A stretch of DNA of 33,941 nucleotides from an uncultured Mucispirillum sp. Lineage in GTDB: Bacteria; Chrysiogenota; Deferribacteres; Deferribacterales; Mucispirillaceae. Shown piece after piece: positions 5,060 to 8,978 of this stretch (positions within the stretch are counted from its first letter, which is position 1; each line of letters starts with the position of its first letter). The notes under the pieces are model-generated. The model worked only from the letters and a program-made list of their open reading frames with translations. It was not told the DNA's origin and searched no databases. Position numbers and translations under genes: made by a program. The stretch is taken from NCBI GenBank assembly GCA_944324495.1, contig CALUWN010000019.1:1-33941 (forward strand). Reading direction: 5' to 3'.

Positions 5060-5842
5060 ATGTATAAATTATTATATAGAATAGGCTCGCTAGTTATTGC
5101 TGTTGGGAATTTTTTTAAAGGTCACAGCCTTTTCTGCCTGCAAGTATCTTCAAAAGGTATTTTCAGCAGGTATTCTTATTCCCCTGCGGTACAAATGGCA
5201 GTTTTAAAGCAGATATATTATGCTGGTATTGAACTTATTGTTATTATGACTATCACCGCCTTAATACTTGGTATGACATTGGTTGGCATTATAACAAAAG
5301 TACTTTTTGCCCTTGATGCTGCACCAAACATCGGCCCTATTCTTACAACAGTAATTATACGTATTACAGGTCCGCTTGTAAGTGGTATATTAATAATACT
5401 TAGAACGTCCACCACTTTACTTGTGGATGTGGGGATGATGAAATCCAACAGGGAAATTAAAGCACTGGAAGTTATGAATATAGACCCCTATATTTACATA
5501 TATTTTCCACGTATTGCTGCAAGTGTTGTTTCTATGGTTGTATTATCCATATATTTTTCCACTGTGGCAATTATTGGGGGCTATACCCTTTTAAGTTTTC
5601 AGTCTAACACTTCCCTTGATTATGTTTTAAGCCAGATTGTTTCCACAATTGCATTTTCTGATGTGGCAACATTTACGTTTAAAACTGTACTTATTGGCTT
5701 CATTGCTGCATCTATCCCTATTTATATTGCACAAAATATGCAGAACTCAAGGACAGCACTTATTCAAGGGATGACAAGTGCTATGATTGGTATATTTTTT
5801 ACATTTATTATTATCATTATCCTTGGGGAAGTATTTATATGA
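5060..5842 (+). CDS. mlaE: MlaE-family lipid ABC transporter permease
   Basis: Inner-membrane permease of an MCE/Mla-type phospholipid transport system, which works with an ATPase (MlaF) and a periplasmic MCE protein (MlaD). At 260 residues it has normal family length. It has an N-terminal amphipathic segment (1-35), hydrophobic segments near 55-85, 92-120, 152-180, 205-225 and 240-260, and the conserved cytoplasmic stretch EIKALEVMNIDP (132-143), which is characteristic of MlaE. An in-frame stop at 5033 and the absence of another suitable upstream codon support the ATG at 5060, although no properly spaced Shine-Dalgarno exists. It is first in a five-gene operon and overlaps the next gene by ATGA (4 bases). 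Confidence 0.92.
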   Translation: MYKLLYRIGSLVIAVGNFFKGHSLFCLQVSSKGIFSRYSYSPAVQMAVLKQIYYAGIELIVIMTITALILGMTLVGIITKVLFALDAAPNIGPILTTVIIRITGPLVSGILIILRTSTTLLVDVGMMKSNREIKALEVMNIDPYIYIYFPRIAASVVSMVVLSIYFSTVAIIGGYTLLSFQSNTSLDYVLSQIVSTIAFSDVATFTFKTVLIGFIAASIPIYIAQNMQNSRTALIQGMTSAMIGIFFTFIIIIILGEVFI

Positions 5843-6375
5843 TAAATTATGCAAGAGATAAAAATATAGTAAGTGTTACTGCCAACTATATGGCAGATAC
5901 TATGCAAAGTGAACTGCTTAAAAAGACTATTTGGAGTAACGTGAGTATTGTTTCCTATAATATACCACTGCTTGCAACACTTTCTATATTTGAAAATATA
6001 ACACTGCCATTGCAGTATTTTGAAAATATTAAAAGAAAAGATGCTGAAACTATTGCATATCATTTACTTAAAAAGTATAATCTCACTAAGGCTATGTATT
6101 TAAGACCAAAAAGACTTAATGAGTTTGAACACTTAATAGTAAAGTACTTGCGGGCTTACATCAGGAAACCTGAGCATATATTTTTTTTTCTACCACACAG
6201 AATGCTTATTACTGATGACTACTCCCCCTTTATTGAATTTATAAAGGAAGTAAAACCAGAATGTCATATTACTGTGGTTGAAAATTACAGATATTTAATT
6301 GAATATAAAGAATTAGAATTTAAGGAGATACCATATAACTCATGGCAGACCCTCGTTTTAAAAACCTTGAGATAA
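5839..6375 (+). CDS. Degenerate MlaF-like protein lacking ATPase motifs
   Basis: The product has 178 residues, at the position where the MlaF ATPase gene is expected. The middle matches the region after the Q-loop in MlaF proteins: SIFENITLPLQ resembles the family's VFENVALPL. After it, LRPKRLNEFEHLIVKYLRA sits where the LSGG signature and following helix belong, and IRKPEHIFFFLPHRML where the Walker B DEP belongs. The roughly 60-residue N-terminal part with Walker A is absent. Walker A, LSGG, Walker B and the H-loop His (VVENYRYL instead of VTHD) are all missing. The frame is open, overlaps mlaE by 4 bases and mlaD by 34, and so looks maintained rather than a fresh pseudogene. It may be a non-catalytic scaffold replacing MlaF, with ATPase supplied from elsewhere. 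The assignment rests on pattern and position only. Confidence 0.7.
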   Translation: MINYARDKNIVSVTANYMADTMQSELLKKTIWSNVSIVSYNIPLLATLSIFENITLPLQYFENIKRKDAETIAYHLLKKYNLTKAMYLRPKRLNEFEHLIVKYLRAYIRKPEHIFFFLPHRMLITDDYSPFIEFIKEVKPECHITVVENYRYLIEYKELEFKEIPYNSWQTLVLKTLR

Positions 6376-7358
6376 AAGTAGGATTATTTGTAGTTATAGC
6401 TGTTGTTATTATTATAACATTAGTTATTGCTATTGGTATAAGCCGTGATATTTTCACTACAAAAGTATATATAGATGTATTTACTGATACTGGTGAAAAT
6501 CTGGCAAAAGGTATGCCTGTAAAATATGCAGGGTTTCAAATAGCACGTGTTAATGACTTATATCTTCAAGATGACGGCAGGGTTATTATGCAGATAGGTG
6601 TGCCTACAAAATATGTTAAATGGATTAGGCAGGATTCTGTATTTTCATTAAGCCTGCAAAATATTATAGGCAACAGTTATATTGATATTAAAACAAACTT
6701 ACAAAGTGAAGCACCTAATATAGAAACAGGCTCAATATTTAGCTTAAAACGTGACCAAGGGCTGCAAGGTATTGTAGAACAGGTTACACCAGTTGTGGCA
6801 GATTTAAGAGAGATTGTAACAAGTGTTAATACTATCTTAGTTCGTTTTGCTGATAAAGATGGCGACTTTAATAAACTTATGCGTGGGCTTGGTTCTCTTG
6901 GTTCTGATATTAGTAATAAAGAAGGCTCACTGGGTTATTTACGTTCTGATGTGGTACAAAATGAGATTGCAAGCTTCTTGGCTGATTTAAGAAGCTTCAG
7001 CGAATCAGCAGTTAGAATGGCACATAATGTGGAAAGTGGCTCTGTTACATTAAAACGTTCGCTTGAAATATTTGATGAACACTCAGAACCTATTGCCATA
7101 GGTACAAATGAAGTTGTAAATGAAGTGCAGAATATGGTACGTATTTTAGCCCCTATTGTAGCAAGGCTTGACCAAGTGGCAGCAAACTTAGAACGTGCTT
7201 CACAAAACGCAGCAGATGGTACGGAAAATTTAGACGAATTAAGAAGCGAAATACAGTCTATTGTTGAAAGCGGTAATGAGCTTATATTAAAAATACAAAA
7301 TACTTGGCCAATTAGTATTGGTAATGAAAAAACACCGGAGAAAGTTCCTTTAAAATGA
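6342..7358 (+). CDS. mlaD: MlaD-family MCE-domain lipid-binding protein
   Basis: Periplasmic, membrane-anchored substrate-binding component of the Mla-type lipid transporter. A cytoplasmic start and one transmembrane helix (about 14-34) precede the MCE domain (about 40-118), with the typical AKGMPVKYAGFQIARVNDL stretch and NIIGNSYIDIK. The rest (120-325) is largely helical and polar, as in longer MCE proteins that form coiled coils or tunnels. At 338 residues it is longer than E. coli MlaD. AAGGAG lies 14 bases before the ATG, an unusually long gap; an in-frame stop at 6336-6338 rules out an earlier start. The start lies inside the preceding gene, so translational coupling is likely. Confidence 0.93.
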   Translation: MADPRFKNLEIKVGLFVVIAVVIIITLVIAIGISRDIFTTKVYIDVFTDTGENLAKGMPVKYAGFQIARVNDLYLQDDGRVIMQIGVPTKYVKWIRQDSVFSLSLQNIIGNSYIDIKTNLQSEAPNIETGSIFSLKRDQGLQGIVEQVTPVVADLREIVTSVNTILVRFADKDGDFNKLMRGLGSLGSDISNKEGSLGYLRSDVVQNEIASFLADLRSFSESAVRMAHNVESGSVTLKRSLEIFDEHSEPIAIGTNEVVNEVQNMVRILAPIVARLDQVAANLERASQNAADGTENLDELRSEIQSIVESGNELILKIQNTWPISIGNEKTPEKVPLK

Positions 7359-8047
7359 TGAAAGGCTTTAAAATAATATCTTCTATACTTGTTTGTATAT
7401 TTGCCGTATCTTGTGCTAGCAAAGTGGAAGATAAAGATATAAACTTAGGTATGACATTAGTTGTAAGAGCTGTTGATTACCAGCTTCAAGGCAGGGAAAA
7501 AATGGCTTCTTACACATATAACCGTGCTGTATCTAAATTTAGAGATATGGGTGATTTCTGTAATATGAGCCGTACAGCAATAGCAATAGTTACAGTAGAC
7601 CCAGAAACAAGCCTTTCTCTTTTAGAAGATGCAAGGGCTTTTGCCACCCTTGGCAGATGCAGTGAAGAACTTAATATTGTTAATTTTTTAAGCCATAATG
7701 ATTATGAATATAAATTACTTCCAGAGCCTTATAAATCTATTTCAAAATTTTACACAACAGGTGATGTTAAACACCTTATAAGTATTGCTAAAAAAGGCTC
7801 AAACAGTGAACAGTTACGCAGTTATGCTTTTAGGCAGGCAGCTGCCCATATTGTGGATAACGACCCAAAATATGCTGTAGAGCTAATTGAAAAAGCTGAT
7901 GTTATTGATTCAAAAAACACTTGGACTCTAAACTTAGTAAAAAATGAAAAAATCCGCTTAAATGCACTGCGTGCAATGGGACTTCCTGATGACTTATCAT
8001 CTCAGCGTCTTAAAATATTGGAGCAGTCTTTAAATGATAAATATTAG
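7355..8047 (+). CDS. Helical-repeat (TPR-like) lipoprotein in the Mla-type operon
   Basis: The product has 230 residues with an N-terminal hydrophobic signal and a lipobox (AVSC, Cys at about 20), so it should be a processed lipoprotein. The mature part is helical, with repeated patterns of the tetratricopeptide or solenoid type (for example REKMASYTYNRAVSKF and DPKYAVELIEKADVI). The start codon overlaps the mlaD stop (ATGATGA); the second ATG, one codon later, is equally possible. By position it could link the inner-membrane transporter to the outer membrane, as auxiliary lipoproteins do in some MCE systems. It does not resemble the PqiC/MlaA families by eye, so the exact role is unassigned. 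Confidence 0.8.
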   Translation: MMKGFKIISSILVCIFAVSCASKVEDKDINLGMTLVVRAVDYQLQGREKMASYTYNRAVSKFRDMGDFCNMSRTAIAIVTVDPETSLSLLEDARAFATLGRCSEELNIVNFLSHNDYEYKLLPEPYKSISKFYTTGDVKHLISIAKKGSNSEQLRSYAFRQAAAHIVDNDPKYAVELIEKADVIDSKNTWTLNLVKNEKIRLNALRAMGLPDDLSSQRLKILEQSLNDKY

Positions 8048-8978
8048 AAACATTATCATAGCACTACTTTTTACATCATCTATATTTTTAATTTCCTGTG
8101 GAGCAGTTGGCGACGGCTCAGAATCTGTTACTGGTTATTTTGGGTATAACTCTAAATATCAAGGCTATACTCATCATGCTGCGTTCAGGAGCTACCAAGA
8201 TGCAGAAATAATGGCAAAAGCACTGGTGGATGGTATAAATAAAGGCAATAAAATATACTTAAAAGCTACAAATGCCATAATGCCACAGCTTTATTTAGAT
8301 AATGGAACAACATATATTCAAGAAAATGGCACTTGTATTCAAAACTATGGGTATAGGTCATACAACACTACAAGAACACCTACCACATCAGATAACAGAA
8401 CTATGACATCATATATTACATACAGCAATTACTGCTTACTTGATACATTATCACCATCACAATATAAAATTATAGTTGATAAAACTTCCCGTCTTGATGA
8501 AGCAGCTTATTTTGACGGCAACCAGTATAATGTATATTATTATGAACTTTTAGCAGATACTGGACTTGAATTAAAAATGCAGGAAAGTCCAATGAGCTGG
8601 GATAATATGACACTAAACGGGCTTTTTCTAAAAGACAGCAAATGTTATGCAACCCATAACCAAGAATGTGTCACCAATAATACAACTATTTCCATGGATA
8701 TGCCAGATAATGCCACAAAATACAGGTTTGATTTATATGCTGAAGAAACACGCAGTAACGGCACTATTCCACAAACATATAAACGAAGCATAAAATTTTA
8801 TCATGCAGATTACGGTTATGTTACAGCAGATATTATATTTTTAGGTAATAATATTACAGTTTCCACAGGTCAAAAAATTACAATGCAGTTCCAAGATAAA
8901 GACTGTAAATTTTCCATAGAAGAATTTGGTACAAATAACTTTAATTGTGATGACTATCAAGATGTTCCTGTTAATTAG
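8034..8978 (+). CDS. Lipoprotein of unknown function, last gene of the Mla-type operon
   Basis: The product has 314 residues. A signal segment ends in the lipobox FLISC|G (Cys about 22). The mature protein is rich in Tyr, Asn and Thr, with several cysteines (for instance around NGTCIQNYGYR, SNYCLLD, DSKCYATHNQECVT and DKDCKFSIEE), suggesting a disulfide-stabilised beta-rich fold in the periplasm or at the outer membrane. It starts 14 bases inside the previous gene, so it belongs to the same operon. No family recognised. Its stop overlaps the end of the opposite-strand gene by 8 bases. Confidence 0.75.
   Translation: MINIRNIIIALLFTSSIFLISCGAVGDGSESVTGYFGYNSKYQGYTHHAAFRSYQDAEIMAKALVDGINKGNKIYLKATNAIMPQLYLDNGTTYIQENGTCIQNYGYRSYNTTRTPTTSDNRTMTSYITYSNYCLLDTLSPSQYKIIVDKTSRLDEAAYFDGNQYNVYYYELLADTGLELKMQESPMSWDNMTLNGLFLKDSKCYATHNQECVTNNTTISMDMPDNATKYRFDLYAEETRSNGTIPQTYKRSIKFYHADYGYVTADIIFLGNNITVSTGQKITMQFQDKDCKFSIEEFGTNNFNCDDYQDVPVN

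Follow-up and report, generated by a model that had tools for sequence, protein, structure and literature searches.

The window analysed here is a stretch of 33,941 nt from an uncultured Mucispirillum sp. with a genome of 2.43 Mb. Between positions 5060 and 8047 it carries four overlapping genes (Table 1), which encode an MlaE permease, a protein that we refer to as X, a long MlaD-type protein and a predicted lipoprotein. The order MlaE-X-MlaD, first proposed from a sequence-only reading, is borne out by profile searches: the permease belongs to the MlaE family, with the PF02405 domain matched at positions 2-205 of 212, while the product downstream of X combines a PF02470 (MlaD/MCE) domain with a hydrophobic stretch at residues 13-33 that, judged from its sequence, would act as an N-terminal membrane anchor. 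X, encoded between the two, holds the position of MlaF. Its reading frame is intact, as had been noted, and overlaps both neighbors, by 4 nt (ATGA) with mlaE and by 34 nt with mlaD.

Table 1. Features of the X operon in the window (+, forward strand).
Feature	Coordinates	Strand	Evidence
MlaE-family permease, X-associated subfamily, 260 aa	5060..5842	+	PF02405, 4.2e-34; X-linked permeases on one side of a branch with 100/99 support
X, pseudo-NBD ('pseudo-MlaF'), 178 aa, ATG start	5839..6375	+	ABC NBD fold predicted; Walker A, LSGG, Walker B DE and H-loop His missing
X residues 41-61 (NIPLLATLSIFENITLPLQYF), putative permease-docking segment	5959..6021	+	highest conservation in the family; hhalign mapping
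long MlaD-type MCE protein, 338 aa	6342..7358	+	PF02470, 1.6e-10; stays next to X
predicted lipoprotein, 230 aa, all-helical, fourth operon gene	7355..8047	+	operon conservation; AlphaFold2 model

The four-gene arrangement is conserved: at almost every X locus examined, MlaD is followed by a predicted lipoprotein. Its Cys20 is invariant in 21 aligned sequences, and the AlphaFold2 model (pLDDT 93.2) is helical throughout. A family search yielded no match to PqiC, and the window copy could not be assigned to a family. The gene is kept across Deferribacterota and Syntrophia; some relatives are TPR-like, one of them with a TPR_12 match at 1.5e-5. The operon lipoprotein gene shares 14 nt with a further gene (8034-8978) for a predicted lipoprotein of 314 aa without a Pfam match.

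Neither the Walker A motif (GxxxxGK[ST]), nor the LSGG[QM] signature, nor the catalytic glutamate is present in any of the 39 aligned X members. In the profile alignment to canonical MlaF, the window protein reads LNEFE in place of LSGGM and FL in place of the Walker B DE, where the proline alone is kept. The Walker B aspartate is found in 14 of the 16 Desulfobacterota-type members, and in only two of the 23 from Deferribacterota; in Syntrophia-type members, this strand reads VVLDRP, so that the aspartate survives while arginine replaces the catalytic glutamate. Likewise, Q85 of MlaF aligns with Y40 of the window protein, and a Q-loop glutamine occurs in just 2/39 members. With few exceptions, the members have Glu or Asp at the H-loop position (X148); seven of the 23 Deferribacterota members have a histidine one position further on, which the window protein lacks. 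These alignments agree with the earlier observation that Walker A, LSGG, the Walker B DE and the H-loop histidine are missing, and also with the retention of an 'ENITLPL' region, which aligns with 'ENVAFPL' of MlaF. X had further been estimated to be at least about 60 residues shorter than MlaF; compared with the canonical MlaF encoded in the same genome (248 aa), the difference is 70 aa.

A wrong start or a frameshift concealing Walker A was considered and rejected. The relatives all begin at about the same place, and the motif loss does not stem from a misplaced start, because no NBD-like sequence was found in the frame upstream of the ATG. As a separate observation on start codons, X in Syntrophia-type loci (L090-L104, L109; e.g. 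L101:9541) mostly has no ATG or GTG near the expected start; its overlap with the mlaE stop reads NTGA, which points to initiation at CTG or TTG.

In Pfam, X scores below every cut-off, and no X member lies above one among the matches listed. The NCBIfam LolD model matches X at 7.5e-8, in an alignment that begins just past the Q-loop. An AlphaFold2 model built from the alignment of 39 relatives (mean pLDDT 88.8, pTM 0.87) exhibits a RecA-like core and an ABC helical subdomain, and its leading matches in the PDB are all ABC nucleotide-binding domains (NBDs), with Escherichia coli MlaF in the MlaFEDB complex (6xbd_I) tied for first place (Z 16.2, rmsd 2.7, 164 residues). Foldseek matches the model to ABC NBDs at an E-value of 1e-9, and hhalign pairs X with 15 canonical MlaF sequences at 98% probability (E 1.2e-13) over residues 32-141. 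By its predicted structure, X has an ABC NBD fold, which upholds the MlaF-like helical layout proposed earlier and counters the objection that X might lack any similarity to ABC ATPases. The model places a strand at residues 8-13, a helix at 16-29 and a strand at 35-39; the P-loop and most of the β-subdomain insertion, some 26 residues, thus seem to be missing, while the strand and helix that flank the P-loop appear to be kept. Given these flanking elements, X would be a reduced core with a helical subdomain and not the product of a simple N-terminal truncation.

MlaF is the likely direct parent of X, as favored by gene position, the permease tree and structure. A LolD origin was rejected: the best sequence scores do come from LolD/MacB-type profiles, yet little weight can be placed on the scores of so degenerate a sequence. 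With 39 relatives, a permease group of 55 rows and a confident ABC NBD model, the observation is far beyond chance. X is a pseudo-ATPase, as the sequence-only reading had suggested, and its motif losses suggest that it would neither bind nor hydrolyze ATP. In the composite ATP site described for MlaF, Walker A is contributed by one subunit and LSGG by the other (PMC7367683). X has neither, and a known catalytic site could therefore be formed neither by two X subunits nor by X paired with MlaF.

Within the order, 36 of the 46 genomes contain X. The same 36 encode the X-type MlaE subfamily, and the other ten, one of which is only 57% complete, encode neither; X is thus an obligate partner of its permease. 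The same gene occupies the same place in 30 loci of the order; the loci compared include genus mates, recorded as Mucispirillum schaedleri and as uncultured Mucispirillum. Outside the order, X was found in another family of the same class (L180, L185) and in part of Desulfobacterota, the phylum of a Syntrophaceae genome, where 11 of the 345 genomes sampled have it. Profile scores set the family apart: X members reach at least 90 bits, partly decayed MlaF-like proteins and their kin do not exceed 80, and 73 is the maximum for other ABC ATPases. A plasmid search returned only generic ABC ATPases. Two loci of one lineage (f103; L178:2049-2603 and L179:2126-2554) are exceptions to the MlaE-X-MlaD order, with MlaE and X but no adjacent MlaD. 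In the second family of the class (f9; L180:2292-3077 and L185:2305-3291), MlaE is extremely divergent (35-40 bits to PF02405), and X and MlaD still follow downstream.

Within the genus, the dN/dS of X has a median of 0.089 (range 0.059-0.199, 36 pairs), next to medians of 0.061 for MlaE and 0.050 for MlaD; the overlaps of X and MlaD were left out of the computation, and the ratios are approximate because dS is near 1. Differences in X fall mainly on third codon positions. X is under strong purifying selection, in line with the earlier suspicion, and the same dead ATPase is kept by selection in two bacterial phyla. It had been conceded that relatives might carry a normal-length mlaF at this place; instead, the dead protein is found there too, and purifying selection acts on it. 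The dN/dS values and the conservation also rule out strain-specific decay, a pseudogene or an assembly error.

While the C-terminal part and the N-terminal strand of X are variable, residues 41-61, directly after the Q-loop equivalent, average 2.95 bits of conservation, compared with 1.5-2.5 elsewhere. In ABC transporters, the coupling helix of the permease is seated in a cleft of the NBD (PMC7367683, PMC7790496), and the conserved segment of X probably lines this cleft. On the side of the permease, residues 101-130 (reference numbering) are the segment that has most in common with canonical MlaE (0.34, compared with 0.20 overall); this stretch adjoins and enters the likely coupling-helix segment. 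Conserved synteny and the conservation of the docking segment thus suggest that X binds and scaffolds its MlaE.

X is too divergent for a phylogeny of its own, so we used the permeases instead. In a maximum-likelihood tree of 85 MlaE permeases, the 55 that are linked to X form one side of a branch with support of 100/99, and 28 canonical permeases form one side of another. The permeases of L176 and L177, which belong to a different phylum, branch between these groups, and the NBD proteins encoded with them have an intact Walker A (GKSGSGKS), with LSMGE for LSGGM, WDNP for DEP and SDD for THD. In the same phylum (L216-L237), some MlaF proteins have LSTGE or LSMGQ with the other motifs intact, and others lack the glutamate and the histidine; in four genomes, three of them from a single genus, the Walker B glutamate is replaced by asparagine and the histidine is lost, in some cases to aspartate. 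These variants are the NBDs nearest to X by profile (about 52-80 bits) but, unlike X, are of full length with an intact Walker A, and they represent a second, partial decay of the motor beside the X clade. A single ancient loss in the X clade is the simplest reading and not a proof, since the tree has no root and contains long branches (L089, L096, and the f9 rows on a stem of 6.07).

The sequence-only reading had also called for a search for a second mlaF. The window's genome contains exactly one clearly MlaF-like NBD (391 bits; the runner-up scores 218), and this is encoded in a second, canonical MCE operon with MlaE (279 aa), MlaF (248 aa) and MlaD (560 aa). A single top-scoring NBD was likewise found in six further near-complete Deferribacterales. 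Every X-bearing genome checked has a second MlaE, with an intact MlaF wherever its partner was examined, and in each of the 21 other genomes checked, X-bearing or partly decayed, a canonical MlaE lies beside an NBD with intact motifs. An ATPase is therefore available in trans. Complementation fails in E. coli when MlaF is mutated in Walker A or B (PMC7367683); canonical MCE transport hence needs ATP, and loss of the ATPase is not neutral there.

The closest known systems are MlaFEDB of E. coli and the three-gene MlaEFD of Veillonella, which likewise comprise MlaE, MlaD and an NBD-fold protein encoded between them; a long MlaD, as in the X operon, is found in Veillonella (PMC10665443). The X operon differs from them in its motif-free, 70-aa-shorter pseudo-NBD and its conserved helical lipoprotein. 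The chimeric Mla-Pqi system Mpc of Brucella comprises an ABC-type permease, an NBD protein, an elongated MCE needle and a lipoprotein (PMC12436622). Both systems have four genes, but MpcF is a real ATPase whereas X is dead, and MpcA is PqiC-like whereas the lipoprotein of the X operon is predicted to be all-helical. PqiABC and LetAB are MCE conduits with the inner-membrane proteins PqiA and LetA and without an ATPase (PMC12436622). The X system, known from its genes, may follow a comparable logic of an ATPase-free MCE conduit. However, PqiA and LetA are not known to be MlaE homologs, and neither system is known to have a pseudo-NBD. Loss of catalytic residues from an NBD is also seen in ABC transporters with one degenerate site. 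In these, Walker A is usually retained, and one of the two sites still works; in X, all motifs and a subdomain are gone, and the operon encodes no active partner. A description of a motif-free MlaF was not found in the open-licence literature.

We propose, with a probability of about 0.6, that X, a pseudo-ATPase, serves as a structural subunit in an MCE system of four genes, which would transport lipid with no ATP hydrolysis at its own permease. X would have arisen from an MlaF-type NBD by loss of the P-loop, the antiparallel β subdomain, the signature, the catalytic glutamate and the switch histidine, and it would have retained the RecA-like core and helical subdomain of its predicted fold together with a presumed grip on the coupling helix of the permease. 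Most likely, it would sit as a structural cap beneath a dimer of the MlaE-type permease, which it would keep fixed or passively gated. X, the permease, the long MlaD and the lipoprotein could then form a trans-envelope conduit, probably for lipid, that works without ATP hydrolysis, and the ATP-driven canonical MlaE-MlaF system, known from its genes, would operate alongside it in the same cell. The predicted fold, the homology to MlaF, the complete motif loss with no composite ATP site, the purifying selection, the conserved docking stretch and operon, the precedent of PqiA and LetA and the obligate partnership of X with its permease count for this model; against it count the ATPase available in trans, the ATP requirement of the canonical E. 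coli system, and the fact that binding of X to MlaE is deduced from synteny.

A possible but less likely alternative is that the canonical MlaF of the second operon drives the X-type permease as well, with X, be it an assembly factor, a placeholder or a brake, being displaced. The window's genome and the six further Deferribacterales each encode two MlaE permeases and a single MlaF-like NBD, X was never found without the canonical system in the genomes checked, and the coupling-helix region of the X-type permease resembles the canonical one; in mycobacteria, a single MceG serves several Mce permeases in an analogous manner. However, X-MlaF heterodimers would not contain any complete ATP site, MlaF is encoded together with its own permease, and X, with an NBD fold in the mlaF slot, should itself occupy the docking site. 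We consider a regulatory or adaptor function of X, with a small role in transport itself, improbable; X might then, for instance, link the permease to another cytoplasmic factor, as MlaB does for MlaF. Such a role would suit a fold kept after catalysis was lost and variable C-terminal and N-terminal parts with space for new contacts, but the most conserved stretch of X would face the permease, and X tracks its permease exactly. Finally, a pseudogene remnant held in place only by translational overlap with its neighbors, as the two overlaps and an in-frame TAG after 142 codons in Denitrovibrio BM701 (L082:9510-9938, also L050; the remainder is alignable, and the stop may reflect decay or a sequencing error) could suggest, is refuted for the family as a whole and deserves next to no credence, given a dN/dS of 0.09 outside the overlaps, changes concentrated at third positions and an alignable core retained in two phyla.

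Searches with MlaF or ABC_tran profiles will miss X-type subunits and report 'MlaDE without MlaF'. The ATPase is the defining part of ABC transporters, and a clade in which, as far as the genes show, both motor subunits are motif-free would be a natural experiment on the roles of NBDs besides hydrolysis. Both ATPase-containing and ATPase-free MCE systems are known; in the X clade, the ATPase decayed until it was lost, and relatives at an intermediate stage of decay stand between. These findings suggest that X-type lipid transporters either have no ATP motor of their own or borrow one. At roughly even odds, we would go further and regard them as a phylum-crossing clade of ABC-permease MCE systems that has permanently lost its ATP motor, in which the NBD has become a fixed structural subunit and lipid would move without hydrolysis. 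This bears on an open point of outer-membrane biology, namely the need of MCE systems for ATP and the direction of lipid flow.
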